Shown piece by piece: positions 974 to 40,726 of a stretch of 40,726 nucleotides of DNA (positions are counted from its first letter, which is position 1; each line of letters starts with the position of its first letter). The notes beneath the pieces were generated by a model. That model searched no databases, was not told the DNA's origin, and was given only the letters and a program-made list of their open reading frames with translations. The position numbers were made by a program, and so were the translations under genes. Origin of the DNA: a virus; IMG/VR virus record IMGVR_UViG_3300020034_000450, positions 1-40,726 of that record. One strand, given 5' to 3'.

Positions 974-1500
974 CGGCGATGATCACTGCGTTTGACACGA
1001 TGGTCAACGGCATGGTCGCCATGGACATCCCGCGCGAGAAGGCCGAACGCGCCGCGCGGATCAAGCTCGGCATCGCCGGATCCGGCGCCGACGTCGTCGA
1101 CCTGGATGACGACGCCCTCGAGGACGTGCACGTCGCGCAGGGAGACAAGCTGATGCGCGCGCTCGGCTTCGAGGTCGTCTGCTTCTCGCAGAAGAAACGC
1201 GCGAAGGTCACACCCGGCATCCCCGATCGCCGCTACATGCGCCGGCCGCGCGTTGCCGGCCGCGCCACGTTCCCCGACGATCGTGTCGTCGAGCAACTCG
1301 GGCCCGCGGTCACGCTCTGGATGGAGTGGAAAGCGTCGTGGGGCCGACAGTCCGACCCGCAGAAGAATTTCCAAGCGCTCACGGAGGCGTGCGGCGAGCC
1401 GTACGTCGTCGGCGGCTACGCGCAGCTTGTCGAGTGGTTGCTGGCGCAGCGCCTCGCCGTCCGGGTCGGCGACATTCTCGAACCCGTTCGAGAATTGTGA
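970..1500 (+). CDS. VRR-NUC domain nuclease
   Basis: The 176-residue product carries a PD-(D/E)XK nuclease core of the VRR-NUC type. Visible motifs are Gly-Ile-Pro-Asp (Asp86), the Glu-Trp-Lys triad piece (Glu119, Lys121) and a following Gln131 in an amphipathic helix, then Tyr-Val-Val-Gly (145-148) and a closing helix. VRR-NUC proteins are structure-specific or single-stranded-DNA nucleases, common in phages next to the terminase or among early genes. The N-terminal 60 residues are an extra helical region. The start is ATG 970, overlapping the preceding stop. It probably resolves branched DNA before packaging, which is inferred from position upstream of the terminase genes. Confidence 0.75.
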   Translation: MTAMITAFDTMVNGMVAMDIPREKAERAARIKLGIAGSGADVVDLDDDALEDVHVAQGDKLMRALGFEVVCFSQKKRAKVTPGIPDRRYMRRPRVAGRATFPDDRVVEQLGPAVTLWMEWKASWGRQSDPQKNFQALTEACGEPYVVGGYAQLVEWLLAQRLAVRVGDILEPVREL

Positions 1501-1502
1501 CT

Positions 1503-1847
1503 ATGTCCGCGACCGTCGTCGGCGAAGTTCGCGTCACGAGCCCTCGTCGTGTGTGGGTCGCGTCGGCGATGACATCGATCACCTGCCTGCCGAGCGTCGA
1601 CGGCCATCACATCAAAGATCCGCTCGTGTGGGAGCACGGATGTCTCCGGTGCAAGCACATCGTCGTTCGCGGCGGCAACGAATGCGGCCGGCTCGTCTAC
1701 CTCGTCGGTGGAGGCTTGGTGAATCCACGGGGCGATCCGCTCGTCATACTGGCGTCGGTCGTCGTCTCGGAGATGCGGCAGATGGCCGAGGCGAAGATGG
1801 ACTACGCCGCGGCGCTCGAGTACCTGGGCATCCGGTTCCTCGGCTAG
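1503..1847 (+). CDS. Hypothetical zinc-ribbon-like protein
   Basis: The 114-residue product has a His-Gly-Cys-Leu-Arg-Cys motif (about residues 48-53) and a later Asn-Glu-Cys-Gly (about 62-65), suggesting a small metal site. The remainder is a predicted beta-rich core ending in a helix (Met-Ala-Glu-Ala-Lys-Met...). ATG 1503 lies two bases after the VRR-NUC stop. It is the last gene of the early chain before the terminator/leader in front of terS. No family is recognised. Confidence 0.5.
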   Translation: MSATVVGEVRVTSPRRVWVASAMTSITCLPSVDGHHIKDPLVWEHGCLRCKHIVVRGGNECGRLVYLVGGGLVNPRGDPLVILASVVVSEMRQMAEAKMDYAAALEYLGIRFLG

Positions 1848-1874
1848 CGCGTGGCGTCGTTGCGAACGCGAGTG

Positions 1875-1927
1875 TAGCATAGGGTCACCAGCCCGATCAC
1901 AACTCACCGTACCGTCTCACCCACGGC
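1875..1927 (+). promoter_or_regulatory. Late-unit leader 1: TAGCAT box plus conserved 17-base element
   Basis: TAGCAT (1875-1880) is the first of three TAGNAT boxes that precede conserved leaders. No convincing -35 is seen here (closest is TGGCGT at 1852). The conserved element ACCGTCTCACCCACGGC lies at 1911-1927. It can fold as a small CCGT/ACGG hairpin that competes with the terminator stem beginning at 1925. The same element recurs at 6699 and 23093. Confidence 0.5.
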
Positions 1928-1968: not shown

Positions 1969-1970
1969 CG

Positions 1971-4383: not shown

Positions 4384-5646
4384 ATGCCGACTGTCTTTGA
4401 TCGCGCACTCGCGCGCACCCGCGGGCCGGCCGGATCCGGCGGCGGCTCGCTCGTGCCGTCGTACTTGAGCAAGCTGCCCCAGTGGACGAGCTGGGGGACG
4501 AAGCGCGCCGTCGACGAAGGCTTCAAAGCGTCGGTGTGGGTCTATATCTCCATTCAACGGCTCATGAAGGCCGCGGCCTCGGTGCCGTGGTACGCGTACG
4601 AGAAACGCGGGTCCAAGTGGGAGAAACAGGAAGACCATCCGCTGTCACAGTTGATGGCCCGGCCGAACCCGTTCATGTCGCGGCAGACCGTGATCGAGTT
4701 TCAAGTCGCGCACCTGCATCTCGCCGGGAACGCGATGCTCAAGAAGATCGAGATTCGCGGGCAGACCCGTGAACTTTGGCCGATCTGGGAGCTCGACAAG
4801 ATTCAGCCGGTCCCGTCGTCGATCGACTTTCTGGATCGCTACGACTTCCGCCGCGACGGTGATGCGATCCCGATCTACCCCAGCGAAGTGGTGCATTCGC
4901 AGTTCATCGATCCGTCAAACCCGTTCTGGGGCATGTCGCCGCTCCAGGCCGCCGCGCGCATCGTCGACACCGACATCGAAGCGGTCCGGTGGAATAAAAT
5001 CACGCTGCAGAACCGCGCGGTCCCGGACGGCGTGTTCGTCATTCCGCAGCAACAGACGCGCGCACAGCTGGACGAGGCGCGCGCGATCGTCACCGAGAAG
5101 TACTCTGGCGCCGATAACGCGCGTGTGCCCTGGGTGATTGGTTCGGGAATGACGTACACGCAGATGTCGCTCACACCGGTCGAGATGGACTGGCTCGAAT
5201 CCCGGAAGATGACCCGCGAGGAGATCTGCGCCACGTTCGGAGTGCCGCCGGCCATGGTCGGAATCATGGAGAGCAGCTCACTCGGCAACGACTATCTCGA
5301 CAGCATCCGACGCATCTTCTGGTCGGACACGGTGATTCCGATCCTCGATCTGCTGATGGACTCGTTCAATCGATCGGTGACGCCGGCGTTTGGTGACCCG
5401 GCCGTGCTGCAGCTCCGCTACGACACGACCGGTGTCGAGGCGCTACGCGAGGATCTCGGCGACAAGATCACGCAATTCGGAAAGTTGATGATGTCGGGCG
5501 TGCCGGTGAACATGGCCGCGCAGCGTCTCAATCTCGGCATCGACAAGATCGACGGCGGCGATGTCGCGCTCGTTCCGGGTACGCTGGTGCCGATCGCCGA
5601 CGCGGGGCAGGGAGACCCGCAGGCGCCAGCACCGAACGAGTTGTAG
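4384..5646 (+). CDS. Portal protein, HK97 family
   Basis: The 420-residue product matches the HK97-type portal: an N-terminal region leading to a conserved core with Pro-Ser-Glu-Val-Val-His (about 160-165), Pro-Phe-Trp-Gly-Met-Ser-Pro-Leu (about 178-185), and Met-Thr-Arg-Glu-Glu-Ile-Cys-Ala-Thr-Phe-Gly-Val-Pro-Pro (about 276-289), a hallmark of the family. It forms the dodecameric ring at the head vertex through which DNA enters and to which the connector binds. ATG 4384 is preceded by AAGGA with good spacing. The minor head gene follows after seven bases. Confidence 0.93.
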   Translation: MPTVFDRALARTRGPAGSGGGSLVPSYLSKLPQWTSWGTKRAVDEGFKASVWVYISIQRLMKAAASVPWYAYEKRGSKWEKQEDHPLSQLMARPNPFMSRQTVIEFQVAHLHLAGNAMLKKIEIRGQTRELWPIWELDKIQPVPSSIDFLDRYDFRRDGDAIPIYPSEVVHSQFIDPSNPFWGMSPLQAAARIVDTDIEAVRWNKITLQNRAVPDGVFVIPQQQTRAQLDEARAIVTEKYSGADNARVPWVIGSGMTYTQMSLTPVEMDWLESRKMTREEICATFGVPPAMVGIMESSSLGNDYLDSIRRIFWSDTVIPILDLLMDSFNRSVTPAFGDPAVLQLRYDTTGVEALREDLGDKITQFGKLMMSGVPVNMAAQRLNLGIDKIDGGDVALVPGTLVPIADAGQGDPQAPAPNEL

Positions 5647-6598: not shown

Positions 6599-6628
6599 CG
6601 CGCCGCCGGATCCGGCGTCTTCTCACTG

Positions 6629-7481: not shown

Positions 7482-8663
7482 ATGGCCGATCTCGAATTGA
7501 AAAAGTTGCACGACGACCTGTCGGCCGCGACCACCGCGTTCCGCGAGGCGAACGATCGGCTCGAAGCCGAGACCAAACGTGTCGGTGCCGGCTCAGTCGA
7601 AGCGAAGGCGTTGGTCGACAAGATGAACGCGCGCCTCGACGACATCGAAGTGAAGATGCAGCGCGCGCGGTTCATGCGCGACGGCACCGGCCAGAGCGAG
7701 GCCAAATCCGACGTCGACGTCATCGAGACCAAGGCCTTCAACAATTTCGCGCGGTTCGGCGACGAACGGTTGTCGGTTGAGGAAAGGAAAGCCGTAGCCG
7801 AGCGGAAGTCGTTGACGACCGACAGTGATCCGGACGGCGGCTACGTCGTGCCGACGACCACCTCGAGCCGGTTCATCCGGAAGCTGATCCTCGTCTCGCC
7901 GATTCGGCAGTATGCCACGGTCGAGACGATCTCGAAGGGCAACGATCTCGAGATCCCTGCCGAGGGTCCGCAGTCGTTCGCGGCCGGGCGCGTCGGTCAG
8001 CGGTCTACACGGCCGGAGACCGCCGCCGGACAGATGCGCCTCGAGAAGATCCCGACGCACGAGTATTACGCGAAGCCGATGCTCACGCAACAGATGATCG
8101 ACGACACGAGCATGGACGTTGAGGGCTGGGCCGCGGATCGCGTCGGCACAGCGATCGGACAGATCGAAGGCCAAGATTTCGTGGCCGGATCCGGCGTGGG
8201 TGGACCCGAAGGCTTCAACAGCTCGAGCGTCACCGACATTCACGGTGGCGACGCGGCGTTGATCAAAATCGACGGCCTGTTCGACATGATGGCGGATCTG
8301 CCCACCTATTACGCGCAGAACGCGCGGATCTATTCCAATCGCAAAACGAAGTACGCGATCCGGAAGCTGAAGGATGGGCAAGGGCAATACCTCTGGCAGC
8401 CGTCGGTCATCGTTGGCGCGCCGCCGACCTTTGACGGCACGGAAGTCGTCGAGATCTACGACATGCCCGATATCGCGGCGAATGCGTTCCCCGTGGTGTA
8501 TGGCGACCTCAAGGCCGCGTACACGATAGTTGATCGCATGCAGCTCCGATTGCTCCGCGATCCGTACACGTCGAAGCCATTCGTCGAGCTCTACTTCACG
8601 AAGCGCACCGGCGGCCAGATCGTGTTGGCCGAGGCGCTGCGTCGCCTGAAGATCGCGGTCTAA
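7482..8663 (+). CDS. Major capsid protein, HK97 fold
   Basis: The 393-residue product begins with a coiled-coil delta domain (residues 1 to about 109), rich in Lys/Glu/Asp. The boundary at Arg108-Lys109-Ser110 followed by Asp-Gly-Gly-Tyr-Val-Val-Pro (118-124) is the usual start of the mature subunit, so cleavage near Lys109 is likely. The remainder fits the HK97 fold through the C-terminal Gly-Gly-Gln-Ile-Val-Leu-Ala-Glu-Ala-Leu. ATG 7482 follows CGGAG. The upstream in-frame extension overlaps the protease gene and is rejected. Confidence 0.93.
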   Translation: MADLELKKLHDDLSAATTAFREANDRLEAETKRVGAGSVEAKALVDKMNARLDDIEVKMQRARFMRDGTGQSEAKSDVDVIETKAFNNFARFGDERLSVEERKAVAERKSLTTDSDPDGGYVVPTTTSSRFIRKLILVSPIRQYATVETISKGNDLEIPAEGPQSFAAGRVGQRSTRPETAAGQMRLEKIPTHEYYAKPMLTQQMIDDTSMDVEGWAADRVGTAIGQIEGQDFVAGSGVGGPEGFNSSSVTDIHGGDAALIKIDGLFDMMADLPTYYAQNARIYSNRKTKYAIRKLKDGQGQYLWQPSVIVGAPPTFDGTEVVEIYDMPDIAANAFPVVYGDLKAAYTIVDRMQLRLLRDPYTSKPFVELYFTKRTGGQIVLAEALRRLKIAV

Positions 8664-9671: not shown

Positions 9672-9700
9672 ATGAGGCGGGGCCACGCGCCTCGTCTCAT
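9672..9700 (+). terminator. Hairpin after the capsid/decoration genes
   Basis: A 12-bp stem (9672-9683 with 9689-9700, two G-U pairs, no mismatches) closes a five-base loop and is followed by CGTTGTTTCG. It sits in the 96-base gap after the decoration gene. It is likely a weak terminator that lowers expression of the low-copy connector genes relative to capsid. Confidence 0.6.
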
Positions 9701-9740
9701 CGTTGTTTCGTCGGTGTCACTTCTCTCTCCGGATCCTCGC

Positions 9741-9929
9741 ATGCGCGTTCGGTCGAACTATCCGCACTTCAGCGTCGATGGCGTGTTGCACGAGATCGGG
9801 GATGAATACGAGTTGGCGGCGGCCGACGAGCTCGCGTTTCGCCTGAAGGACGGGATTGTCTCGGACGCGGGCCTCGCGCTCGTCGAACCGCCGCCCTCCC
9901 CGCCGGCGGTCGCGCCGGATCCGGCGTAA
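9741..9929 (+). CDS. Small hypothetical protein
   Basis: The 62-residue product starts at ATG 9741 (an upstream in-frame ATG at 9672 lies within the hairpin and is unlikely). It has a short beta-like core (Phe-Ser-Val-Asp-Gly-Val) and a Pro-rich tail encoded in part by the GCCGGATCCGGC palindrome at 9914. Position between decoration and connector genes fits a small head or joining protein; not recognised. Confidence 0.5.
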   Translation: MRVRSNYPHFSVDGVLHEIGDEYELAAADELAFRLKDGIVSDAGLALVEPPPSPPAVAPDPA

Positions 9930-10948: not shown

Positions 10949-13855
10949 TGTCCGCCGTCATTGATTGGGCGCTCTACACGGAGCCGGCCGTCGGTCGCGG
11001 ATCGCCGGACGAAGCCGACGTGATCAATCGGCCATTGCGTCAGGTGCTAGAGCTCTCCGGTCTCGATCCGGACGTCCCGTTCGCCGGGTTCTCGGTTGTC
11101 GGTCATACGCATACCGCGGGCGATGTCGTCGCTGGCACACTCTCTCCGTCGCGCGGCGGGACCGGTCGTTCTGATCCGACGCCGGGTTCGCTCCTCGTGG
11201 CGGCCGGCGCGGCCGCGATGCTGTTGCTGGCGCCTGGAGCCTCGGGTCAAGTCGTGCGATCGAACGGAGCCGCCTGGACGGCGGACGTCATGGTCGCATC
11301 GGACATTAGCGATCTCCCAACTGCGGCGACCGGCATCACGCGCGTCGGGACGATCACTGTCGGCACGTGGCAAGGGTCCCCGATCGCCGACACCTATATC
11401 GCCACGCTCTCGGTAGCGGGCAAGGTCGCCAACTCGGCGACGACGGCCACCGCGGCGAACACGGCGAACGCAATCGTCGCGCGGGATGCGTCGGGCAATT
11501 TCGTGGCTGGCACCATTACGGCGAACGTCATCGGCGCCGTCACCGGATCCGTCACCGGGAATGCGGGCACCGCGACCAAGCTCTCGAGCCTGCGGACGTT
11601 CGGCGTATCCGGCGACGCCGCGGGCTCGGTGGGTTCCGATCTCACGAGCGGTGTCACGATCTCCCTCTCGCTCGCCGCCGGCGTTATTTCGGACGCGAAC
11701 ATCGCATCGACCGCGGCGATTGCGTATTCGAAACTGTCGCTCACGGGCGCGATCCTCAACACGGACATCAGCGCCGGCGCCGGGATCGTCGACACCAAGT
11801 TCGCCACGATCTCGACGCCGGGGAAAGTCGCGAACAGCGCCACGACGGCGACGGCGGTCGATGCGGTTGGAACGATCGTCGCGCGCGATGGCAGCGGCAA
11901 TTTCGCGGCGGGGACAATCACGGCGTCGTTCGCCGGCGACGGATCGATGCTCACGTCGCTCAATGCGGCCGCGTTGTCGAGCGGTGTGATTGCATCAGCA
12001 CGGCTCGCGGGCGCGTACAACGGCATTACGCAAGTCGGCACGTTGCTCGCCGGCATCTGGAATGCGACGGTGATCTCTCCGGTGTTCGGCGGTACGGGAC
12101 TGAACGCCGCGGCCGTGGGCGATCTGATGTACGGGTCCGGCGCCAACACGTGGGCTCGACTCGCCGGCAATCCGCTACCCACGCGCAAATTCCTCGTGCA
12201 GGCGGGCGACAGTGTAAATCCGGCGGCGCCGTCGTGGGGGAACCCGACGCCCGACGATATCGTCGCCGGCACGTTCAACGGCCTATTCACGTTCCGCGCA
12301 GGTCTGACATCGGGCATTGTCCCGGTGCCGTCGGCAGCGGCGTCGCTGCTGCCCAACCGAACAACGATCTTTGTCACCCCGGACACGAACGACGGGACAG
12401 CGCGCGCCGGATCCGTCATGGTCACTGGATACGGTGCGCCGCCTGCGTTCACTGGTGTGACCGCTGGAGGATCGCCGCAAGCGCCACTCGCGGTCTCGCC
12501 GGGCACGAACCTCGTCGAGATGATCGGCGTTGGATTCGACGGCGTCACGTGGAGCGCCGGCGGCCGTATGCGGGTGAATGCCGCGGAAGTGTGGACCTCG
12601 ACCGCACACGGATCGCAGCTCGTCTTCTCGACGACGCCGAATGGATCAACGGCGCTCACGGATGTCCTGACTATCGGCGATAGCGGCGCCGTCGCGGTCC
12701 TCGGTGACGTCACCGTCAATACGAACAAGCTCACGATCACGGCGAGCACGGGCGCGTTGACGGCGGCCGGCCAGATCACGACGACTGCGGGCTTCCTCTC
12801 TGGCGTCGCGGGCAGCGGCACCGGTGGGCGCTACGTTGCCCGCGATGACGGAGGCAATGACCGCTGGCAGTGGGGCCTCCTGAGCACCGTCGGAGCTCGC
12901 AACTGGTCGCTCTACGATTTCGGGAATAATAGAGAAGCGATCTCGGTGCACGCGACGACGGGCGTCGTCACGCTGCCGACGGGGTTGGTTGTTGGGACGT
13001 CGCTGACAGCCGCCAGTCTCTCAGTCGCCGGCGCCGCCAGTGCGGCATCGCTGACGGCGGGCACGGCGACCCTCACCGAACGACTCACCATCGACGATGC
13101 CACTGGCATCCGTTTCACGACAACGGACGCGGGTGTGTACGTCTCGGCAAGCAAACTGTTCATCGGTCGCTACTCGTCCGCGGGCAGTTTTGGACTCTCC
13201 GTCGATCCTGCATCTGGAACGCTCTCTGGAATGGCGGCCGCGTTCGCGGCAGCCATGACGATCACCACGACGCCCGCCACTGCGCTCATCCTGCAATTGA
13301 CAGGCAATGCGACGACCGGCGGCTATGTGAGTTTCCTCGACGCCACCGCCTCCAACGCGGTTCGTGGATTCATCGGGTTCGGCACGACGCTTGGCGGCGC
13401 CGCGTCGACAGAAATGGTACTACGATCTGAGAGTTCCACGGCCCTGACATTCAGCGGCGGCAACGTCGGACTGCGCATCGCAGCGACAACGGGTGCGGTC
13501 ACCGTGCCTCAGGCACTGGTGGTCAGTGGTCTTGCGTCATTCAACTCCGTGGTATCGATCGATGGGCTACCGACGGCCGCGACCTTTGGGAACACCGGAT
13601 TGCCCAATAAGCGCGTCATGATCGGGTACGATGCTGTTAGCGATTACGGGTTCGTCAGCGCGATACACGGGCACGGCCAACAAGACGCTCTTTTTGAATC
13701 CCATCGGAGGCGGTGTCCGCGTCGGCGTTGGCGGCTTTTTCGTCGACGGCGCGTTTGGCTGCAATGGGAACACGCCGCAAACAAAAGCAGTGTCAGGCGG
13801 AACGGTCGGCGGGGTGATCGCTGCGCTCGTCGCCAACGGCATCCTCTCGTCGTAG
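10948..13855 (+). CDS. Tail fibre-like protein, interrupted by a +1 frameshift
   Basis: The intended product is about 968 residues. It has fibre features: His-Thr-His-Thr-Ala-Gly-Asp (near 53), several Gly-Gly-Thr-Gly turns, and repeated modules with Gly-Lys-Val-Ala-Asn-Ser-Ala-Thr-Thr-Ala-Thr and Ile-Val-Ala-Arg-Asp-x-Ser-Gly-Asn-Phe (around residues 157-191 and 292-322). Reading is open in one frame from 10948, but at GGGC (13669-13672) the sense moves to the +1 frame, where Thr-Ala-Asn-Lys-Thr-Leu-Phe-Leu-Asn-Pro continues the fibre to TAG 13853-13855. The original frame becomes Arg-rich nonsense until it merges with the next gene. One extra base, real or from sequencing, explains this. 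Its place between the stopper and tail completion genes is unusual. Confidence 0.75.
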
Positions 13856-16073: not shown

Positions 16074-16435
16074 TCCCGTATGACGAAGTCGGCGCCGTGT
16101 GCTCCGAGGTCTCAGAGCGGAACGGCCCAGAGTTCATGATCGTGCTGCGTCAACCCTTCGCGATCACGCTCTACGCGTATCTCATGCTCCGCGATCGCGA
16201 TCGGATTGCCGACATCAAAACGAGGAGTCGTGACGTGTATCGCGGGGTCCTGACGGCCATGGCCATGAACGATCCGAAGCGCCTCGAACGGGAGCGCGCC
16301 GAGGTGCGCGCCGACATGCGTAGCGCGCCGGATCCGGCGGCGCAGCGACAAAGTGTCACGGACCGCCGAGCGGCGGGTCTCGCGCTGGCGACCCTCATTG
16401 AGCGCTCGGGTGTGCTCGACGACCGGAGAAACTAA
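16034..16435 (+). CDS. Tail assembly chaperone, T extension (gpGT C-terminal part)
   Basis: This is the part read after the -1 slip, about 133 residues. The full GT product would be about 226 residues (93 from the first frame). It includes a basic C-terminal helix region. A GTG at 16097 could start an independent 112-residue protein, but the slippery site, the stem and the absence of a good ribosome site there favour a fusion. In lambda-like tails GT links the chaperone coat to the tube protein. It ends one base before the tape measure start. Confidence 0.8.
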   Translation, partial: RGRADDPDSVAGLIPYDEVGAVCSEVSERNGPEFMIVLRQPFAITLYAYLMLRDRDRIADIKTRSRDVYRGVLTAMAMNDPKRLERERAEVRADMRSAPDPAAQRQSVTDRRAAGLALATLIERSGVLDDRRN

Positions 16436-22594: not shown

Positions 22595-22619
22595 ACTCTC
22601 TCGACGGTTCGAGGCTCAC

Positions 22620-23991: not shown

Positions 23992-23995
23992 GACC

Positions 23996-24475: not shown

Positions 24476-24497
24476 TCGCTCCCGATGGTGTTCGTGG

Positions 24498-24535: not shown

Positions 24536-24566
24536 TGGCATGCGGCAACGCCTTGAGGAATCTGGC

Positions 24567-30487: not shown

Positions 30488-31693
30488 TCACGCTGAGCAG
30501 TGCTCGAGGACGGCTTGTTCAATTCGTCTCAGGCGATGCTCAGCGTGAGCCGGTGGGGGAATCGGACGAAAGGAATAGAGGGCCGGAATTCGGCCCTCGA
30601 GTACGTCCTCCATGGCTCGGTCGGCGGTGAAGATAGTTTCCGCGAGCTTGTTGCTCTCGGCGATGGCGAGCACTCGTTGAATCGCTGCCAGCGCCTCCTG
30701 CGTTTCGCCTCGCGCTGCAGCATCGCGGGCGGTTGCCTCGTGAAACCGAGCCTCGACCAGCGGAGGAAGCACTGTGACCGAAAGAGAATCTCGGCAGTCG
30801 CGCATCATGTTCTGATCTCCCTCGTCGATCGCAACATTGTACGCGAGTACGGTTGCCTTCGCGCGAAGATCGCCATCGATCGCGCTCACTCGCAGCTCCG
30901 CCGCGATCGCGCCGGCCGAGAAGCTTCGGCCTAATTCACGAAGCGCTGTCGCCATGTTCATGAGCGCTCGATCCCGGTCGTTGGCGTCCGTCGTCCATTC
31001 CAGCGCCTGACGAGTGAAATCGAGCGCACCGATCGGGTCGTCGCTGAGACCAGCGATGCGAGCTAAATCGATTTTCGCCTTCGCCGCGATCGTGGGTTCC
31101 GAGTAGCGAATGGCGCGCCGCACAACTCGTTGGACGGCTGTTCGAGCAAGGGGAAGATTCCCTCGATCAATTGCGACCTTCGCGAGCCCAAGCTGCCCCT
31201 CGAGTCTCTTTGAGACATCGCGCGCCTGTTTGGCGAGCGCGATCATTTGATGGTAGGAGACCTCGGCGTCGTCGAACTGGCTGAGCAACCGCAGCGCGAA
31301 TGCCCGACGTTGGATCGCCAACAATCGGATATCGGCATCGCCGGTCGCAGTGTCGAACACCAACGTGAAGACGTCGACGGCGGCTTGCAGATGACCGCGG
31401 CTGTGGAGTTCGATGCCGTACGCCATCAGCTGCGCGCCGATCTCGGGTCGCTGGCCTGGCAGGTCTGCCTGTACTGCGGAGACGAGCAACCGCTTGAGCA
31501 TCCCGCTCAATCGAAAGTCGATGACCTTGACGATATGCTCATTGGCGTCTCTCTCGATGTCCTCGAAGGATTCATCAACGAAGAGCGCCGCGTGGCTCGC
31601 ACGAAAAACGGAGAATCCAGCGCGGAGCTGGAGCCATTCCATATCGACCGGTGCCCGCGTCGCGAGCGTCTGAAAGAATCCCATTCCAATCAT
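30488..31693 (-). CDS. TPR-repeat protein of the lysogeny region
   Basis: The 401-residue product is helical throughout with several tetratricopeptide-type repeats (clear Ala-Leu/Ala-Arg helices around residues 125-300). No HTH, catalytic or membrane motif is visible. It is leftward, 77 bases downstream of the XRE repressor and in the same direction, so it is probably expressed in the lysogen. TPR proteins usually bind other proteins or peptides; partner to the repressor is an inference. An alternative start is Met4. Confidence 0.7.
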   Translation of the reverse strand: MIGMGFFQTLATRAPVDMEWLQLRAGFSVFRASHAALFVDESFEDIERDANEHIVKVIDFRLSGMLKRLLVSAVQADLPGQRPEIGAQLMAYGIELHSRGHLQAAVDVFTLVFDTATGDADIRLLAIQRRAFALRLLSQFDDAEVSYHQMIALAKQARDVSKRLEGQLGLAKVAIDRGNLPLARTAVQRVVRRAIRYSEPTIAAKAKIDLARIAGLSDDPIGALDFTRQALEWTTDANDRDRALMNMATALRELGRSFSAGAIAAELRVSAIDGDLRAKATVLAYNVAIDEGDQNMMRDCRDSLSVTVLPPLVEARFHEATARDAAARGETQEALAAIQRVLAIAESNKLAETIFTADRAMEDVLEGRIPALYSFRPIPPPAHAEHRLRRIEQAVLEHCSA

Positions 31694-31770: not shown

Positions 31771-32274
31771 TCACGCGCTCTTCGCCTGACTCCCTGGCTT
31801 TGGCCCGATCGGCATGTTGCCGGTCGCGAGGATCGCCATCTCTTCGGCGAGCGAGCGGGCCGCGTCAGGATTCTCGCTCGCAATCTCAATCACGCTGAGA
31901 TACACAGCGGCCAAGTCGCGACGTGCCAAGCGACGTTCGTTGTCGCTGAGCAAAGGCCATTGCTCAGCGATGTGCCGTCGTTGCTTTTCAAGGCGCTCGC
32001 GACCGAGTTCCAGACCTTGGTTTGGTGGATTCTCCGCGATAGTGCCACGTGGCACGTCATTGTCTAGACTCTTTGACTGCGCCGGGTCCAGTTCCATATC
32101 ATAGAAATGCCTGAGCTTGCGAAGCTCGGCGGGGCCAATGTGGCCGGAGTTCTCCCAGCGTTCGATGGTCTTTGCCGACTTACCAACGCCCTGCGCGACT
32201 CGCTCGCGACTGTAGCCGGTCTTGTCCCGCAATCCTTTCAACTCCTCGGATATCCGACGTTCTTCTTTCGTCAT
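31771..32274 (-). CDS. XRE-family repressor, no peptidase domain
   Basis: The 167-residue product has an N-terminal XRE helix-turn-helix (residues about 8-58: Leu-Arg-Asp-Lys-Thr-Gly-Tyr-Ser-Arg-Glu, Lys-Ser-Ala-Lys-Thr-Ile-Glu-Arg-Trp-Glu). The C-terminal part is helical and lacks the LexA/CI S24 peptidase signature. Induction by RecA-driven self-cleavage is therefore unlikely. Start ATG is at 32274, within a direct repeat of the operator half-site. Its divergent neighbour is a small HTH gene. It is the prime candidate for the lysogeny repressor. Confidence 0.75.
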   Translation of the reverse strand: MTKEERRISEELKGLRDKTGYSRERVAQGVGKSAKTIERWENSGHIGPAELRKLRHFYDMELDPAQSKSLDNDVPRGTIAENPPNQGLELGRERLEKQRRHIAEQWPLLSDNERRLARRDLAAVYLSVIEIASENPDAARSLAEEMAILATGNMPIGPKPGSQAKSA

Positions 32275-33049: not shown

Positions 33050-33576
33050 AACGCGGCTGGTACGACCGGGCCGAGGAGCTCGACGCCGCCCGCGACGCGG
33101 TAGCCGTGCGCGCGCTGCCGGATCACGCGGTGCCGTACAGCGTGCAGTTGGCGCACGAGCGGCGCGTCATGGCCGAGCACCAGCGCGCACAGGATGCCGT
33201 GATGGTCGAAGCGCGGCCGATCGTCGCGCCGGATCCGGCGCCGAAGAGTTGGACGGAATACGCGGCCGGCAATCCTCGGTGTCTCACGCCAGCGCAGGCC
33301 GCGGCTGGTCTCACGCCGGACCAAGCAGCACTCGTCGCGTGCCCGCACCACGACCTGTCGGTCATCATCGCCGGCGGCTCGACGCTCGACGATCACGACA
33401 CGAGTTACGCGCAGTGCCGCACGTGCCAGCAGTATCTCGTCGTCACGACGTTCTTCTCGAGCGATCGCGTCGACACGCGCCCGATGACCGAGGCGGAGCT
33501 GGTGCGCTGCGCGGCGAGCGAGAACGGTCGCGACCGCGCCGAGTGGCTCGGCGACTTCCAAGGCGGCGTCGAATGA
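33046..33576 (+). CDS. Hypothetical protein with a zinc-type site
   Basis: The 176-residue product overlaps its neighbours on both sides (ATGA at 33046; stop over ATG 33573). The middle has Ala-Cys-Pro-His-His (about 103-107) and Cys-Arg-Thr-Cys (about 125-128), which could coordinate zinc. The Asp-Pro-Ala segment at about 61-65 is encoded by a GCCGGATCCGGC palindrome. Not recognised. Confidence 0.5.
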   Translation: MKRGWYDRAEELDAARDAVAVRALPDHAVPYSVQLAHERRVMAEHQRAQDAVMVEARPIVAPDPAPKSWTEYAAGNPRCLTPAQAAAGLTPDQAALVACPHHDLSVIIAGGSTLDDHDTSYAQCRTCQQYLVVTTFFSSDRVDTRPMTEAELVRCAASENGRDRAEWLGDFQGGVE

Positions 33577-34321: not shown

Positions 34322-35476
34322 ATGTCTCATGCGCTTGTGCACTCTGGCGATCACCCGATCGAACGCGCCGCGGCCGCGGATCTCCGGCTGCCGGCGCCGG
34401 TCGACAAGAACGCGCTCCGCGCCTACCTCACGCTGCTCGAGGATCCGGAAGCGCTGCAGTTGCAGAACCGGTTGGCGAAGGCGTACGATGCCGCGTGCGC
34501 CGCGCTGATCGGGCCGAACGACGTGCAGATCGAAGGGAAGGGCGACAACGCGCGGTCGTTCAAGAAGAAGTCCGCGTGGAAGAAGCTCGCGCGCTACTTC
34601 TCCATCTCGACGACGGTGCTCGAGCGCAACGAGCGATTCGTGTTGGACGAGAGCACCGGGGAGTCCGTCTTTGTCGCGACGTGCACCGTGCGGGCAGTCT
34701 CTCCGTGGGGCCAATACGCCGATTCGGTCGGCGCCTGCGCCACCGACGAGGAGACCGGGAAACGCAAGATCACCATCGCCGACGCGATCGGCACCGCGGA
34801 GACGCGGGCGTCGAACCGCGCGACGTCGAACCTGGTGGCCATGGGCGAAGTGAGCGCCGAGGAAGCGACGCGCGAGGAACGCGAGCAAGTGGTGCAGGAT
34901 GCCGCGGCCGAGCTGACGCTCGAGGAAGCGAAGGCGGTGAAGTTCCCGTGGCGCAATCCTGAGAAGTATCGCGATAAGCCGATGGGCGATCTGTCTGTCA
35001 ACATGCTCACCTCGGTACTCGACGCGACCGAGAAGGAAATCACCAAAGTCGGCGCAACGCCCCGCCGAGTGGAACTCAAGCGCGCGTGCGAACTACTGCT
35101 CACCTACCACGCGACCCGCGCGGAGTTTGCCGAGCCCAAGGCGACTGCGGCGCCGAGCGAACCGACCACCGAATCAAACGCTGCACCGACGGACGCTGGC
35201 GCTGCCTCGCTGGTCGCCCCGAGTACTGACCGCGAGGTCGCACCGGCTCCTGCGGCAACCGCTCCAGCCGCGGCGCCGAGGTTCACTGGTCCTGCCGCGT
35301 TCAAGCTGCCGTTCACCTGGCTGACCACCGACGTCGGCACGCCGATCGGCGAGTTGGGCAGCGACGAGCTTGAGGGCGTGCTGCAGTGGGCGATGAAGAA
35401 CGGCAAGCATCTCGAGCTCGTCGAAGCCGTGACGCAGCTGCTCGATGACCGTCGGTTCGCCGACGCGGAGGTCTGA
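34322..35476 (+). CDS. Putative single-strand annealing / Rad52-like protein
   Basis: The 384-residue product starts at ATG 34322, two bases after the Gp157 stop. Residues 80-95 (Phe-Lys-Lys-Lys-Ser-Ala-Trp-Lys-Lys-Leu-Ala) and 152-180 (Ala-Asp-Ala-Ile-Gly-Thr-Ala-Glu-Thr-Arg-Ala-Ser-Asn-Arg-Ala, then Gly-Glu-Val-Ser-Ala-Glu-Glu) resemble a widespread Rad52-type/annealing family core. A low-complexity Ala/Pro/Thr linker (about 265-320) leads to a small C-terminal domain. Neighbouring Gp157 supports a recombination role. Fold call is tentative. Confidence 0.45.
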   Translation: MSHALVHSGDHPIERAAAADLRLPAPVDKNALRAYLTLLEDPEALQLQNRLAKAYDAACAALIGPNDVQIEGKGDNARSFKKKSAWKKLARYFSISTTVLERNERFVLDESTGESVFVATCTVRAVSPWGQYADSVGACATDEETGKRKITIADAIGTAETRASNRATSNLVAMGEVSAEEATREEREQVVQDAAAELTLEEAKAVKFPWRNPEKYRDKPMGDLSVNMLTSVLDATEKEITKVGATPRRVELKRACELLLTYHATRAEFAEPKATAAPSEPTTESNAAPTDAGAASLVAPSTDREVAPAPAATAPAAAPRFTGPAAFKLPFTWLTTDVGTPIGELGSDELEGVLQWAMKNGKHLELVEAVTQLLDDRRFADAEV

Positions 35477-37041
35477 TGACGAGTCAATCCATCTCGATCG
35501 CGTGCATCTACTGCCGGTGCACCGACGACAACGCGTGTGTGCTCTCCGATAGCACGTGCAGCTGGTACGAAGAAGATCCGCGCGTGTGCAGCAACCCCGA
35601 ATGCTTGGCGAAGTATCAGGCGGGCGTGCCGCCGTTCGTCGAGCAACACCTGGGCGAGTACGACACGAACCCGCCGATCGCCGAGCGTGAGGAGGCGGCG
35701 TCTACCCTCGGCGATCTGCTCGCGTCGGACGTCGGCAAGCTCGTCGTACTCGCGCTCGACACGATCGCACCGGATCCGGCGCAGGCGCGCGACGAGGGCG
35801 CGGACGACGATCTGGCGTCGTCGATCGCCGCGCAGGGGGTGTTGCAACCGATCATCGTGTACGCGCACTTGGGCGACGAGTTCGGGAAGCTGTGGATGAT
35901 CGAGGATGGGGAGCGTCGGTACCGCGGCGCCATCAAAGCCGGACTCCGCGACATCCCCGCGCGGGTGATCGATGCGCCGTCGGACGAGGGCGACAAGCTG
36001 CTCCATCAGAATCTGTTCAACGACGGCAAGCGGCTGAAGCCGATGGAAGAAGCGCGGTCGTGGAAGCGCATCATGGCGTCGAAGCAGTGGACGATCGCGC
36101 AGTTGGCGAAAGCGCTTGGCCGGCCGAAGTCGACGGTGAGCGATCGTCTCGCGATCCTCGAGGCGCCCGCTGCATTTCGCCCGCTGTTTGAAACGGGAAC
36201 ACTCACTGCGGCCGCGGCGCCCATCCTTCGGGCATACGCGGAACTCCCCGACAAAGTGCTCGAGGACCTTGTCAAAGATCTGACCGAGCATGAATGGGAA
36301 GACGAGATCGCCGAGGGCAAGCCGATCGCGCTGGACCAGGTCAAGCGGGGACTGCAAAGCTCGATCGATGTCGGCGATGTGCTGCGCCCGATCGACAAGC
36401 GGATGGCCGAGATGTACACCGGGCCAGTGGTGACGATCAAGGGTGAGGCGTACGCCACCGACGTCAAGGCGTACGAAGCGATCACGACGAAGCAGACGTC
36501 GAAGCCGTCGCCCTCGACACACGTCGCAGCGCCGGAAAGAAATCCGTACGCTGAGCAGCAACGCAAGGCGCAGAAGGCAGCGAAGGCGAAGGCGGCGGTT
36601 CGTCGAGCGCAATTCGCTGCTGTGTCCGCGAAGCTGCCGTCGTCGCTCGACGCGAAGTGGTCGCTGTTTCTCGTGCAAAACCTGATGAAGGAAATGCACC
36701 ACGACGCTTTGCGCGCGGCCTGTACATCGCTCGGTGTCGAGACCAAGAAGAAGGGCGGTGCGTACGGCGGTTGGGATTTCGCCGGATCGCTCGGCAAGCA
36801 CGCTGAGTCGTTGAGCGCCGACGCGCGAGTACAGATGGCGCTGCAGCTGCTGCTCGCACCCGATCTCACGGTGTCACCGAACTACGACGGAGGGGCCAAA
36901 CGCCTCGCCGCGGCGGCCGAGCTGCTCAAGCTCGATCTCGCGAAGATCAAACCACCAATTGACGAAAAGGCGAAACTCGCCCTGCAGACTCGACTCGAGA
37001 AGAAACCCGCGAAGAAATCACCCAAGAAGGCGAGGCGCTGA
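35476..37041 (+). CDS. ParB-like nuclease/partition protein with Cys-rich N-terminus
   Basis: The 521-residue product begins with a Cys-rich module (Cys10, 13, 15, 21, 28, 38, 43) with a Cys-Thr-Asp-Asp-Asn-Ala-Cys core, a motif seen alone in phage proteins. A ParB-like domain follows at about 85-190 with Gly-Glu-Arg-Arg-Tyr-Arg (145-150), then an HTH (about 205-228: Ile-Ala-Gln-Leu-Ala-Lys-Ala-Leu-Gly-Arg). A Lys/Ala-rich linker and a C-terminal domain complete it. The start overlaps the preceding stop by one base. It could act in plasmid-like maintenance, replication or transcription control. Confidence 0.75.
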   Translation: MTSQSISIACIYCRCTDDNACVLSDSTCSWYEEDPRVCSNPECLAKYQAGVPPFVEQHLGEYDTNPPIAEREEAASTLGDLLASDVGKLVVLALDTIAPDPAQARDEGADDDLASSIAAQGVLQPIIVYAHLGDEFGKLWMIEDGERRYRGAIKAGLRDIPARVIDAPSDEGDKLLHQNLFNDGKRLKPMEEARSWKRIMASKQWTIAQLAKALGRPKSTVSDRLAILEAPAAFRPLFETGTLTAAAAPILRAYAELPDKVLEDLVKDLTEHEWEDEIAEGKPIALDQVKRGLQSSIDVGDVLRPIDKRMAEMYTGPVVTIKGEAYATDVKAYEAITTKQTSKPSPSTHVAAPERNPYAEQQRKAQKAAKAKAAVRRAQFAAVSAKLPSSLDAKWSLFLVQNLMKEMHHDALRAACTSLGVETKKKGGAYGGWDFAGSLGKHAESLSADARVQMALQLLLAPDLTVSPNYDGGAKRLAAAAELLKLDLAKIKPPIDEKAKLALQTRLEKKPAKKSPKKARR

Positions 37042-37044
37042 CCG

Positions 37045-37932
37045 ATGGGATTCTCTAAAATCTCCATCACCAAAAAGTCGGTCGACCTCTCGCGCGAGAC
37101 CAAGGACGCGAACGGCGCCGTCGAGGAAGTGCATCTCAACTCCCCCGAGTATCCGCTATCGACGTTCCGGGACGCGCTGCAGGCGTTCGCGCCGTTCGTC
37201 GTCGAGCTGCTCGAGATCCCGGAGTCGTGGCGCGAGACGCTCACGATCACGACGCTCAATCTGAGCGCGGACAAGAACGGGCACCGCGGGTTGATCGTCA
37301 CCGCGATTCGTCCGATCCCGAAGGCGTACGACAAGCCGCTCGTGATGAACACGCCGCTCGTGCGCGAGGGCGGCGAGGATCCGAGTCCGGACGCGTTTGT
37401 GCTGAGCGACGTCGTACTCGACCTGATCGCACTCGCCGAGAGTGAAGCGACGCGCTACGCCAACGGCGAGCGGGTTCAGACGGAGCTGTTCCCGAAGGCC
37501 GAGACGAAATCCGACAACGCGACCGCGTTCGACGATCGCGCGGCGGCCGCGGAAGTCGCGTCGACGCGGAAGCCGGGGCGCAAGAAAAAGCCGGTCGACT
37601 TCGTGCGCGGCGTCGGCGCGGTCGTCAACGCGGAATCGACGGAGCTGCTCGACGACGCCGGGATTCGGCAGTTGCTCCTGCAGGTCGAGCGTGTCGTGGA
37701 GGTCGATCAGATCGCGCGGTGGACGTCCAGTGAGCGCAATCTCGCGGTGGCGTGGGCGGACGTGCGGTTGAAGGAGATGGTGACTGGCAAGCTGAATAAG
37801 CCGCCGATCGTCGAGCCCGAGTGCGTGCGGGCCGCGGCCACGGTGCCGTTGTCGGCCGACAAGTGGACGGGACCGAAGCCGATGCGGATGACCGACGAAG
37901 CGGCGGCCGCGATTCGTGACGCGCGAGCCTGA
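37045..37932 (+). CDS. Hypothetical conserved phage protein
   Basis: The 295-residue product starts three bases after the ParB stop. The first 110 residues look like a folded domain known from GC-rich phage early regions: Pro-Leu-Ser-Thr-Phe-Arg-Asp-Ala-Leu-Gln (about 37-46), Leu-Thr-Ile-Thr-Thr-Leu-Asn-Leu-Ser (about 66-74). A Lys/Arg linker (about 175-185) and a helical C-domain follow. No function assigned. Confidence 0.55.
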   Translation: MGFSKISITKKSVDLSRETKDANGAVEEVHLNSPEYPLSTFRDALQAFAPFVVELLEIPESWRETLTITTLNLSADKNGHRGLIVTAIRPIPKAYDKPLVMNTPLVREGGEDPSPDAFVLSDVVLDLIALAESEATRYANGERVQTELFPKAETKSDNATAFDDRAAAAEVASTRKPGRKKKPVDFVRGVGAVVNAESTELLDDAGIRQLLLQVERVVEVDQIARWTSSERNLAVAWADVRLKEMVTGKLNKPPIVEPECVRAAATVPLSADKWTGPKPMRMTDEAAAAIRDARA

Positions 37933-37934
37933 CC

Positions 37935-38240
37935 ATGGCCACCGACGTTCAGAAGACACTCACGTTCTACAAAGTCGCGGCGGGCACCCGCTCGTCGCGC
38001 TGCAACGGCAGCACGTGCGGCAAGGTGATCTACTTCGTCGCCAACCCGCGCACCGGGCGCATGATGCCGATCGACTGCGACGTCGAGGGCGGGGAAGCGC
38101 CGAGCTTGCACGCGCCCGATCCGACGCAACAGAGTCTGTTCGGCGACAAGGTTGAGCATCACCACGGGAAAGGGGTGCTGCATTTCCTGACGTGTCCGGA
38201 TCGCGACGAGTTCTCGAAGCGAAGTGCGTCGCGTGGCTGA
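37935..38240 (+). CDS. Hypothetical zinc-binding protein
   Basis: The 101-residue product has Arg-Cys-Asn-Gly-Ser-Thr-Cys (about 22-28) and ends with His-Phe-Leu-Thr-Cys-Pro-Asp (about 83-89), a metal-site pattern common to a small phage family with Met-Pro-Ile-Asp-Cys in the centre. It starts two bases after the preceding stop. It may bind nucleic acid. Confidence 0.55.
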   Translation: MATDVQKTLTFYKVAAGTRSSRCNGSTCGKVIYFVANPRTGRMMPIDCDVEGGEAPSLHAPDPTQQSLFGDKVEHHHGKGVLHFLTCPDRDEFSKRSASRG

Positions 38241-38445
38241 GAAGACCGCAACGACGTGCCCTGTTGAAGGCTGCGAGAATCGCCGCGGCCAGGGCAAGCT
38301 GGTGTGTTTCTCCTGCTGGCGCCTCCTCCCGCGAGCGCTCGGTCTCAAGCTGTACGCGGCATGGAACGACGGGGATGAGACTGACGAATACCCTGCCGTC
38401 CGCGAACAGGTGCTATCACTCCTCGATCAAAAGAGGGCGAGATGA
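38233..38445 (+). CDS. Small zinc-finger protein
   Basis: The about 70-residue product has Cys-Pro-Val-Glu-Gly-Cys and Cys-Phe-Ser-Cys-Trp (near residues 9-14 and 25-29), then Leu-Pro-Arg-Ala-Leu-Gly, matching a known small phage zinc-finger pattern. Start could be GTG 38224 or 38233; the latter gives the usual short overlap with the previous stop. It ends within the next ATGA. Confidence 0.6.
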   Translation: MAEKTATTCPVEGCENRRGQGKLVCFSCWRLLPRALGLKLYAAWNDGDETDEYPAVREQVLSLLDQKRAR

Positions 38446-38696
38446 GCGAGACGAACCGCAACCGCCCCGACGTGCTCGCGAAGATCCTTCGCGTGTCGAT
38501 CGCACGGCTCGCGCCGGAGCCGTTGCCGTACCTCGGGTTCACGGATGTGCAGCTCGCCGCGGTGGAGTCGATCGAGCTGGTCGCGACGGCGCTCGAGGGG
38601 CTGCGGCTGGCGCCGGATCCGGCGGAGGTCGAGGCCTTGTATGGTCACGGCCGAGGCGACGTCCTCGGCGACGCGACGGGGTACACCCTTGGCTAA
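38442..38696 (+). CDS. Small hypothetical protein
   Basis: The 84-residue product overlaps the previous stop (ATGA). Helical and acidic in the second half, with Leu-Arg-Leu-Ala-Pro-Asp-Pro-Ala (about 54-61) encoded through the palindrome at 38612. Not recognised. Its stop overlaps the TTG of the J-domain gene. Confidence 0.45.
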   Translation: MSETNRNRPDVLAKILRVSIARLAPEPLPYLGFTDVQLAAVESIELVATALEGLRLAPDPAEVEALYGHGRGDVLGDATGYTLG

Positions 38697-39336
38697 CATC
38701 ACGTGGAGCGTCCTCACCGCGTGGCCCGCCAACCGGCCGAAGACGGACTCGATCGAGCGAGTCCCGTCAAGCCGATTCAAGTCGTCGTTCGCGCACACGC
38801 TCGATGAGCTCGAGAACGAACTCGATCGCATCGACGCCCACGACCCGATGATCGAGATCGACATGGATCGTCGCGAGCTCCGCGTGACCGGCGAGCCCCG
38901 CGCGAATTCCTCGACGCTCAAGACGCCCGGCGTGATCCTGCACTTCGTCGATCGCAACAAGCAAACGATCACGATGCCGTGCGATCGATACGATTCGTGG
39001 CAAGCGAACGTGCGCGCGCTCTTCCTGACGCTCCAAGCGCTGCGCGCCGTTGATCGCTATGGCGCCACCGCGAGCGGCGAGCAGTACCGCGGTTGGACCG
39101 CGTTGCCGGCGACGACCACGGCGTTCACCGTCGACCAGGCCGCGACGTTCCTCGCACGTCTCTCCGCGAACGGTGCTACCGCGGCGGACCTCGTCGCCAA
39201 TGTCGAGGCGGCGCGCAACGCCTACCGCCGTGCGGCCGCCAATACGCATCCGGACGGCGGCGGCTCCACCGGCAATTTCCAACTCGTGCAAGAAGCCAAG
39301 CGCGTGCTCGGCGCGCACTTCGGAGTTGCGTTATGA
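38689..39336 (+). CDS. Phage J-domain protein
   Basis: The 215-residue product has a C-terminal J domain: Tyr-Arg-Arg-Ala-Ala-Ala-Asn-Thr-His-Pro-Asp (HPD at 187-189), then Gly-Gly-Gly, then Phe-Gln-Leu-Val-Gln-Glu-Ala-Lys-Arg-Val-Leu, the usual DnaJ course. The N-terminal 140 residues match a conserved phage module (Arg-Ala-Val-Asp-Arg-Tyr-Gly, Glu-Gln-Tyr-Arg-Gly-Trp, 119-136). TTG 38689 is chosen; ATG 38641 is an alternative. It could recruit host DnaK to a phage process. Confidence 0.7.
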   Translation: MANITWSVLTAWPANRPKTDSIERVPSSRFKSSFAHTLDELENELDRIDAHDPMIEIDMDRRELRVTGEPRANSSTLKTPGVILHFVDRNKQTITMPCDRYDSWQANVRALFLTLQALRAVDRYGATASGEQYRGWTALPATTTAFTVDQAATFLARLSANGATAADLVANVEAARNAYRRAAANTHPDGGGSTGNFQLVQEAKRVLGAHFGVAL

Positions 39337-39536
39337 CCCCCGCGTACGTGAAACAGAAGGCGGCAGCGGCTTACCTCGGCGTCTCGGTCCGGTATTTCCG
39401 CGACTGCGTCGACGTGCGGCCGAAGGAATTGCCCGGCACCCGCACGCGCCCCATGCTCGTGTGGGCGATCGCCGATCTCGACGCGTGGGTGGCGCGCGTG
39501 AGCGATCCCAAATCTCGCGCGCGGAAGGCCTCATGA
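39333..39536 (+). CDS. xis: Excisionase-like HTH protein
   Basis: The 67-residue product has an HTH_17-type motif (Lys-Gln-Lys-Ala-Ala-Ala-Ala-Tyr-Leu-Gly-Val-Ser-Val-Arg-Tyr-Phe) and an adjacent wing-like part with Trp. It overlaps the J-domain gene and the integrase (ATGA on both sides), the usual place for a recombination directionality factor. The role as excisionase is inferred from size and position. Confidence 0.6.
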   Translation: MTPAYVKQKAAAAYLGVSVRYFRDCVDVRPKELPGTRTRPMLVWAIADLDAWVARVSDPKSRARKAS

Positions 39537-40726
39537 CCGCGTACAAGCGCGCCGGGCGCCGGATCCACCAGGTCAAAATCGGACTCAAATCGGGCGAATG
39601 GATCGCGCGCACGTCGGGCACGCGCGACGCTGTCACCGCGAAGAAGATGCAGCGCATGGTGGACGAGCTCGGGCCGCAAGGGACTCGTGCCTGGGACATC
39701 ATCGATCGCCTCGAGGCAAAGACCCTGACGGTCGCCGCGCTCTGGGATTTGTGGGTCGCGAATGACAAGACGCTCGATCGCGTGCGCGCGCAGCTCGACG
39801 ACGTCGACCTCGAGCCGATGGTCGCGCCGTGGCGTGAGACGTTGCTTGGGCCCGCGAGCGGCATCGCCGAGGACACCGCCGAGCACTACGTCACCGCGGT
39901 GCGGTTGCTCCTGACGAAGGACGCGCCGTTCCTGCGATCGGCGCTCACGCCCGCCAAGCTCCGCACGTGGATCGAGGAAATGACCGGCGTCGAGTCGGCG
40001 ACCGTTCGGAAGCGCGGGCAGGGGATGCGCCGGTTCACGAAGCACCTCGTCGGCCGACACGTGCTGAGCGTCGATCCGATGCGCGACGTCGCGCTGCCGG
40101 CGCCTGGCGGACCGCGCGTAGCATTCCTCGAGACGGTCGACGCGAAGCGGCTCGCGGATGCGCAGCCCTCGCCGTACGCGGCGTTCTCGGCGCTGCTGGC
40201 CGGATCCGGCATTGAGGTGTCCGTCGCGCTGACGCTCCGTCGCCGCGACATCGATGAGAAGAACCGCGAGATCCGCGCGGCGGGCACGAAGATGACGCAT
40301 GCCCGCGACCGCATTGTGCGCGTCGCCGAGTGGGCCTGGGCCTACGTCGAGCCCTTGCTTGAGGATCGGCACGCCGACGCCTTGCTGTTCGACGAGATCC
40401 CGACCCGCCGGGCCGCGCGTGACGTGCACGCGGACGCCGTTGCGGCGCTCGTGGCGAAAGGACACACGATCTACGATGGGTACACCATGCGTGACCACCG
40501 GCATACCTACGCCGTCCGTGCTATTCGGGCGGGTACGCCGGCGGAGCTCGTGTCGCGCCAGCTAGGCCACGTCAACGCGGTGCTCGTCCATAAGGTCTAC
40601 GGGCGATTCTCGCCGAGCCAGGTCGAGCGGGACAAGTGGGAACGGGTGGCCGCTGCTCAGGATGCGGCCACTGAGGCAGCCCAAAAAGCGAAGGGGAAGG
40701 GCCGGGCACCCGAGGCGGTCGCGTGA
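39533..40726 (+). CDS. int: Tyrosine recombinase (integrase)
   Basis: The 397-residue product has an N-terminal arm-binding part, a core-binding helix bundle (about 65-175), and a catalytic domain. Lys253, Arg323 (Arg320-x-x-Arg323-His-Thr), His346 and Tyr356 are present. The first catalytic Arg position (in Gly-Ser-Gly-Ile-Glu228) is Glu, and the His of the HxxR box is Arg320. This combination may be a family trait. The gene ends on the last base of the window. It integrates the phage at an attachment site that cannot be seen here. Confidence 0.8.
   Translation: MTAYKRAGRRIHQVKIGLKSGEWIARTSGTRDAVTAKKMQRMVDELGPQGTRAWDIIDRLEAKTLTVAALWDLWVANDKTLDRVRAQLDDVDLEPMVAPWRETLLGPASGIAEDTAEHYVTAVRLLLTKDAPFLRSALTPAKLRTWIEEMTGVESATVRKRGQGMRRFTKHLVGRHVLSVDPMRDVALPAPGGPRVAFLETVDAKRLADAQPSPYAAFSALLAGSGIEVSVALTLRRRDIDEKNREIRAAGTKMTHARDRIVRVAEWAWAYVEPLLEDRHADALLFDEIPTRRAARDVHADAVAALVAKGHTIYDGYTMRDHRHTYAVRAIRAGTPAELVSRQLGHVNAVLVHKVYGRFSPSQVERDKWERVAAAQDAATEAAQKAKGKGRAPEAVA

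Follow-up and report, generated by a model that had tools for sequence, protein, structure and literature searches.

A 12-bp palindrome dispersed over a phage genome as predicted loading sites for a ParB-family protein encoded by the same phage

KorB is a sliding clamp that depends on CTP, is loaded at the operator OB, and silences promoters at distances of more than 1 kb (PMC11790492). In the IncP plasmids R751 and RK2, to which this system belongs, a ParB-family protein is combined with palindromic sites that are scattered across a mobile genome, and R751 carries nine copies of TTTAGCnGCTAAA across 50 of its 53 kb. Noc of Bacillus, a ParB paralogue that works without ParA, is likewise paired with many dispersed palindromes, the NBS sites, and temperate HK97-type siphoviruses such as VarioGold and Aval contain a solo ParB and one to six dispersed copies of TGCASAnnTSTGCA. 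Phages often carry ParB-like genes without ParA, labelled "ParB-like nuclease" or "partition protein," whose target is not known. The stretch of viral DNA analyzed here (the window; 40,726 nucleotides) resembles the KorB/OB arrangement in holding many palindromes, 13 exact and 5 near copies, and a ParB gene on one element. It differs from KorB/OB in that its sites have another sequence and lie mostly within genes, away from promoters; the KorB_C domain was not found in the phage protein, whose match to the KorB domain was weak and below threshold, and no KorA-like gene was recognized in the phage, whereas R751 possesses both KorA and an IncC/ParA-type protein. Noc and its sites are chromosomal, have a membrane-linked role in division, and involve a different site sequence, whereas the VarioGold and Aval proteins are larger (770 to 950 aa, compared to 521 aa) and are accompanied by fewer sites, also of another sequence.

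The palindrome, GCCGGATCCGGC, is present in 13 exact copies in the 40.7-kb window, a density of 319 per Mb; all sites are listed without strand. Five copies are read in the AGSG frame, at 1075 to 1086 (within the gene at 883 to 1500), 4429 to 4440 (portal gene), 8184 to 8195 (major capsid gene), 24194 to 24205 (open reading frame [ORF] 23954 to 24475), and 40199 to 40210 (tyrosine integrase gene). Six are read as PDPA, at 9914 to 9925 (the end of ORF 9672 to 9929), 16327 to 16338 (ORF 16097 to 16435), 22979 to 22990 (ORF 22524 to 23051), 28136 to 28147 (ORF 26820 to 28925), 33228 to 33239 (open frame ending at 33576), and 38612 to 38623 (open frame ending at 38696); the RIR frame is not used. 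The copy at 2566 to 2577, 2 nt past the TerS stop codon, falls in the AGSG frame if the early GTG at 2536 is the TerL start and is otherwise located between the two terminase genes, and that at 6605 to 6616 is intergenic, ahead of the prohead protease, so that 11 or 12 of the 13 copies are inside genes. Copies with one mismatch occur at 12406 to 12417 (GCCGGATCCGTC), 17981 to 17992 (TCCGGATCCGGC), and 35769 to 35780 (ACCGGATCCGGC, a PDPA copy within the parB gene), and two copies with two mismatches but an intact core, CCGGATCCG, were found at 11542 to 11553 (ACCGGATCCGTC) and 18723 to 18734 (TCCGGATCCGGA, palindromic nonetheless); the 10-mer core CCGGATCCGG has 16 copies. These counts bear out the 13 exact and three near copies reported in the first-pass annotation, which also placed the motif in several coding frames and in noncoding DNA.

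Markov models of orders 0 to 5 predict 0.015, 0.022, 0.035, 0.044, 0.061, and 0.23 copies, respectively, in keeping with the earlier estimate of much less than one, and the enrichment therefore stands up to the higher-order models that had been named beforehand as a potential refutation. Among 400 simulated genomes (200 for order 3 and 200 for order 5), 12-bp palindromes, whatever their sequence, were never present in more than 4 copies. Shuffling of synonymous codons gave a mean of 0.55 and a maximum of 3 copies, against the 11 coding copies observed, which rules out codon bias as the source and agrees with the first reading of the motif as unlike ordinary codon usage; GGA and TCC are minor codons in this phage. 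Selection on GCCGGATCCGGC acts at the DNA level. The sites are also spaced over-evenly, the minimum distance among the 16 best sites being 1,215 bp (P of approximately 5e-5); spacing in other phages was only weakly even (combined P of 0.037). A reversed-pattern control was set aside as an unfair background, as it contains the rare CTAG.

The gene at 35476 to 37041, on the plus strand, encodes a solo 521-aa protein with ParB_N (residues 92 to 167) and HTH_ParB (residues 187 to 266) domains, which we propose as the reader of the palindrome. Matches to PF02195 (E=3.5e-11) and PF17762 (E=9.6e-11) both exceed the gathering score, and phmmer aligns the protein with 1vz0 at an E value of 9e-18. When the confident core (residues 85 to 300) of an AlphaFold model with a mean pLDDT of 63.5 was submitted to Foldseek, the top 29 matches were all ParB, Noc, or KorB; as modelled, the product is a member of the ParB superfamily with the ParB/Noc/KorB fold. 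Its nucleotide motifs comprise GERRYRG, of the GxRRxxA type, and QNLFN in place of ENLQR (ENxQR), and a normal CTP cycle is uncertain because of this degeneracy. Terminase, ParB, and portal searches found no close relatives.

The carriage of ParB and the presence of dispersed palindromes are associated. In a set of 119 sequences, each 9 kb or longer, with a dispersed palindrome scored at a P value of <1e-10, such palindromes were found in 8 of 23 ParB carriers and in none of 96 others (Fisher P of 6e-7); with the window, R751, and L305 removed, the figures were 5 of 20 and 0 of 96 (P=1e-4). The scan recovered the known KorB operators of R751 as a positive control. A 41.7-kb phage, G442 (IMGVR_UViG_3300023103_000067), was flagged by its palindrome alone, CGAACCSGGTTCG in 11 copies, and its ParB was found later; it has a related capsid (35% identity), but the palindrome is a different one of 13 bp and its ParB retains the canonical ENLQR. 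The remaining 15 of the 23 carriers, some of them partial sequences, had no such palindrome, and none that was strong and dispersed was seen in the ParB carriers Maja, Nyceirae, GEazy, Opie, ctl617, and Bbif-1. The palindrome of L305 is doubtful as a ParB site, with three copies in 3.4 kb distant from parB, and was omitted from the stricter comparison. Other candidates were rejected: GCAAATTTGC in L176, L179, L184, and L187 belongs to repeats, mostly 89 bp apart, and viral contigs with a 14-mer (L008, L103, G020, and others; one to three copies each) and three contigs with close pairs (two or three clustered copies) represent different phenomena.

Phages with VarioGold-type ParB proteins provide a second line of evidence. 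Palindromes of the form TGCANAnnTNTGCA numbered 55, in 41 of 80 loci encoding such a protein, compared to none in 80 control loci, and TGCASAnnTSTGCA was present in all 26 full phage records tested. Within this family, the G/C base of the motif tracks ParB residue 191, which ranks top of 330 alignment columns and adjoins the equivalent of Caulobacter ParB G201 and Noc R186, the residue that sets specificity (PMC7383237). Approximately four switches on the tree account for the covariation, with only one row departing; the independent switches are few, and the two starred independent pairs are not formally significant. The window's ParB shares 18 to 25% identity with these proteins, and its link to the exact motif GCCGGATCCGGC therefore rests on association.

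We conclude that the copies of GCCGGATCCGGC are probably dispersed loading sites for the phage's own ParB, a prediction made from sequence and supported by the association with ParB carriage, the recovery of the R751 operators, the VarioGold-type motif, and the residue covariation. The near copy within parB counts toward the same reading, since L293, L294, and L304, all related ParB elements, likewise contain a site in parB. Binding, clamp formation, and biological output are steps that we infer: ParB dimers would bind GCCGGATCCGGC through the HTH_ParB domain, close as a nucleotide-dependent clamp, and slide along adjacent DNA, and with 13 to 18 sites some 0.7 to 6.7 kb apart, ParB could cover the entire 40-kb genome. 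Sites that are mostly coding and over-evenly spaced suit the loading points of a sliding clamp. The set would then work as dispersed KorB operators or Noc sites do, not as a single partition centromere, and the output may be silencing or organization of the prophage or the marking and organization of the genome ahead of packaging. The first-pass annotation had offered a HIP-type iterated palindrome or a dispersed protein-binding site, with the ParB-like protein, a methylase, or host recombination and repair as possible readers; our data favor a dispersed site read by ParB and, as set out below, do not support a HIP-type palindrome read by host repair or a methylase.

An immunity repressor, for example the HTH_3 (XRE-type) regulator encoded at 31771 to 32274, might instead occupy the sites and block transcription elongation in the prophage, as stoperators do. 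Dispersed repressor sites over a temperate phage genome are described in PMC9283540, and this phage encodes both that regulator and a tyrosine integrase; however, the Cluster A stoperators described there are asymmetric, whereas GCCGGATCCGGC is a perfect palindrome. Stoperators are also largely intergenic and oriented with transcription, unlike the predominantly genic copies here, and dispersed palindromes associate with ParB carriage, the trait that was scored systematically. We consider this explanation unlikely. Equally improbable is the use of ParB-read sites for classical partition, or for maintenance of a plasmid-prophage, through a host ParA. Membership of the ParB family and the parS-like palindromes are in its favor, and full ParABS systems are reported in some temperate Gordonia phages (PMC10586128). 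Against it, hmmsearch (E<1e-3 for the window) found no ParA in the window, nor in G442, VarioGold, or Aval, whereas the same search detected ParA in L294, L303 to L306, L308, L310, and L311; the tyrosine integrase, moreover, suggests integration into the chromosome. Partition usually requires just a few clustered sites, in contrast to the 13 spread evenly here.

A little less probable still is a HIP-type iterated palindrome arising from host methylation, mismatch repair, or replication, to which the phage has ameliorated. PMC4390886 describes cyanobacterial HIPs as GC-rich palindromes in coding and noncoding DNA and reports alternate HIPs with matching methyltransferases, and GCCGGATCCGGC contains GATC, which is frequent in the phage (478 copies). 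HIP1, however, is an octamer, chromosome-wide and methyltransferase linked, whereas GCCGGATCCGGC is 12 bp long and phage specific. Among 84,980 species genomes scanned for two copies of GCCGGATCCGGC within 61 bp, there were 72 scattered pairs and no genome rich in pairs; the highest density among the genomes counted was 13 per Mb (47 copies in 3.7 Mb), and none approached the phage density, although the true host may be absent from the collection. A Gemmatimonadota host, guessed from lipoprotein style, is unproven, as portal matches in 395 genomes were only 21 to 30% identical, and each of these genomes held at most 30 copies. The phage L126 (99-kb full record; portal 45% identical) has no copy. 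Host repair as the reader is thus unsupported, as is a methylase, none having been found among the phage genes scanned, and the outcome of the host comparison favors a real feature of the phage. GC-rich 12-mers are more likely at 64% GC, but the Markov, simulation, and shuffle tests already refute an origin of the copies in chance or codon usage.

We tentatively suggest that a widespread class of temperate phages, hitherto undescribed, may couple a solo ParB clamp to its own evenly spaced loading sites, kept within coding sequence, as a genome-coating or silencing system in which site and protein coevolve; the window phage could be the densest case of this proposed class seen here. Candidate ParB target sites are now supplied for three unrelated-looking groups, dispersed palindromes offer a simple route to further cases, and the covariation of residue and base is testable. 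If this proposal is true, clamp-loading proteins would be a general means by which phages act on their whole genomes, adding a new layer of genome organization or lysogeny control.

The window, a complete viral record of 40,726 bases with a GC content of 64%, contains 13 exact copies of the 12-bp palindrome GCCGGATCCGGC, three near copies with one mismatch and two further near copies with an intact core and two outer changes each; variation among the near copies is confined to outer positions. Expected counts are 0.015 to 0.23 under Markov models of order 0 to 5; in simulation (200 genomes per order, orders 3 and 5) the commonest 12-bp palindrome, whatever its sequence, peaked at 4 copies, and the runner-up in the window occurs only twice; the first-pass annotation, which had counted 13 copies and three near copies where much less than one is expected, is therefore confirmed. 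CCTCGAGG is present in 9 copies against 1.7 expected under an order-3 model, and GATC and CGATCG are frequent (478 and 120 copies).

Eleven exact copies lie within genes, five in a frame reading Ala-Gly-Ser-Gly (AGSG), six in one reading Pro-Asp-Pro-Ala and none in the third; of the other two, the copy at 6605 is intergenic and that at 2566 lies at the terminase gene junction. Synonymous-codon shuffling over the gene set gave a mean of 0.55 motifs (maximum, 3) versus the 11 coding copies, and every AGSG copy employs the minor codons GGA and TCC, which make up 14% of the glycine and 15% of the serine codons, respectively. The enrichment is a DNA-level signal, unlike ordinary codon bias, as had been suggested. 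No two of the 16 sites with no more than one mismatch are spaced by less than 1215 bp, a more even distribution than chance would produce (P about 5e-5).

The palindrome at 40199 lies within the integrase gene (39515-40726), where the protein reads LLAGSGIEVSVALTL at the place of the TGxR box usual in tyrosine recombinases; on visual inspection, Glu seems to stand in place of the catalytic arginine. Elsewhere, two adjacent genes in 24420-26788 (ends at 25724 and 26788), which by eye share a similar C-terminal domain, possibly represent a duplicated tail depolymerase; the second weakly matches polysaccharide lyase/3-keto-disaccharide hydrolase families. The stretch 26820-28925 encodes a 701-amino-acid protein and is internally repetitive: direct repeats of 120 nt, 71% identical, lie at a distance of 444 bp. 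An XRE-type regulator and an adjoining TPR protein (31771-32274 and 30488-31693, minus strand), in the lowest-GC part of the window (about 59-61%), may act as a pair in lysogeny control or in quorum-like regulation.

The suggestion that the motif behaves like a HIP-type iterated palindrome was not upheld. One genome from each of 84,980 species was scanned for two copies of GCCGGATCCGGC within 61 bp, yielding 72 scattered loci and at most two per genome; a phage-like density would yield tens of such loci, so no scanned genome approaches it. The phage carries 319 copies per Mb, whereas the densest bacterial genome among those counted in full, the Actinomycetota MAG SZAS-4, carries 47 in 3.7 Mb, a density 25 times lower, and 395 Gemmatimonadota genomes contain no more than 30 copies each. 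The motif is also absent from 99 kb of the nearest phage by portal (45% identity). GCCGGATCCGGC is thus probably not a HIP, since it is not iterated in the host genomes searched, nor is it a host signature among them; the true host could lie outside the collection.

We propose as candidate reader the product of the gene at 35476-37041, a member of the ParB superfamily with ParB_N and HTH_ParB domains; a one-mismatch copy of GCCGGATCCGGC lies inside this gene, at 35769. The solved structures closest to it in sequence are Spo0J, ParB, Noc and KorB, and the core of its AlphaFold model matches this set, model confidence being low outside residues 85-300. The nucleotide motif GERRYRG is kept; QNLFN, followed by a two-residue insertion, replaces the ENLQR of relatives (conserved ENxQR), possibly reflecting an altered CTP cycle. 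No ParA was found in the window by a profile search that detected ParA in plasmid controls.

Carriage of ParB and of dispersed palindromes coincided in some other elements. A scan of every retrieved sequence 9 kb or longer (strong match, p<1e-10) recovered the known KorB operators of the IncP plasmid R751 (TTTAGCnGCTAAA, nine copies) and found strong dispersed palindromes in 8 of 23 ParB carriers versus 0 of 96 other sequences (Fisher, 6e-7); once R751, the window itself and L305, whose palindrome is doubtful, had been removed, the figures were 5/20 and 0/96 (p=1e-4). The 41.7-kb phage G442 (IMGVR_UViG_3300023103_000067; handles L313-L315, L140 and L325) was selected by its palindrome only (CGAACCSGGTTCG, 11 copies), and its ParB gene (37268-39046) was discovered later; it joins the window as another phage whose palindrome is spread over the genome. 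Sites lie within parB in the temperate phage VarioGold (L293), L294 and L304. L294 (Aphanizomenon "phage" Yong-DA), with five copies of GTTCAGAnnTCTGAAC, one of them the site within parB, resembles a ParAB plasmid with many polysaccharide genes rather than a phage. The related phages L176, L179, L184 and L187 carry AGGGAGCAAATTTGCGACCCG, which contains the palindrome GCAAATTTGC, four to five times, mostly 89 bp apart.

Among 80 viral loci with a solo ParB of the type found in VarioGold and a second temperate phage, Aval (L326), 41 contained a total of 55 TGCANAnnTNTGCA palindromes, versus none in 80 control loci, and TGCASAnnTSTGCA was present in 1 to 6 copies in all 26 full records tested. 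These phages (L332-L411, VarioGold and Aval) form a large temperate family that combines dispersed TGCASAnnTSTGCA sites with a long solo ParB; in some records, such as the full one of L364, the spacing is mostly about 7 kb. The motif has two forms, TGCAGA and TGCACA, best separated among 330 ParB columns by VarioGold residue 191, which in our alignment adjoins the position of Caulobacter ParB G201/Noc R186, a position that reads a neighbouring base (PMC7383237). In a 42-protein tree, the form switched about four times and residue 191 tracked it in all rows but one; as independent starred pairs number only two, this sequence covariation is suggestive rather than proof.

The ParB/GCCGGATCCGGC system is not ParABS, because no ParA was found, and its protein is not KorB itself, as neither KorB_C nor KorA was seen; the sites, being palindromic and mostly intragenic, are not a stoperator system. 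The system probably works as dispersed KorB or Noc systems do. In the open-access literature searched, we found no description of solo phage ParBs with cognate sites throughout the genome. KorB, a CTP-dependent sliding clamp, acts at distances of more than 1 kb from its operators (PMC11790492), and by analogy with this clamp, the phage ParB would load at GCCGGATCCGGC palindromes and then spread over the DNA between them, so as to cover the whole phage genome. A coverage role suits the sites better than promoter-by-promoter repression, since their spacing is even and promoters are ignored; candidate outputs would be prophage silencing, organisation or packaging.
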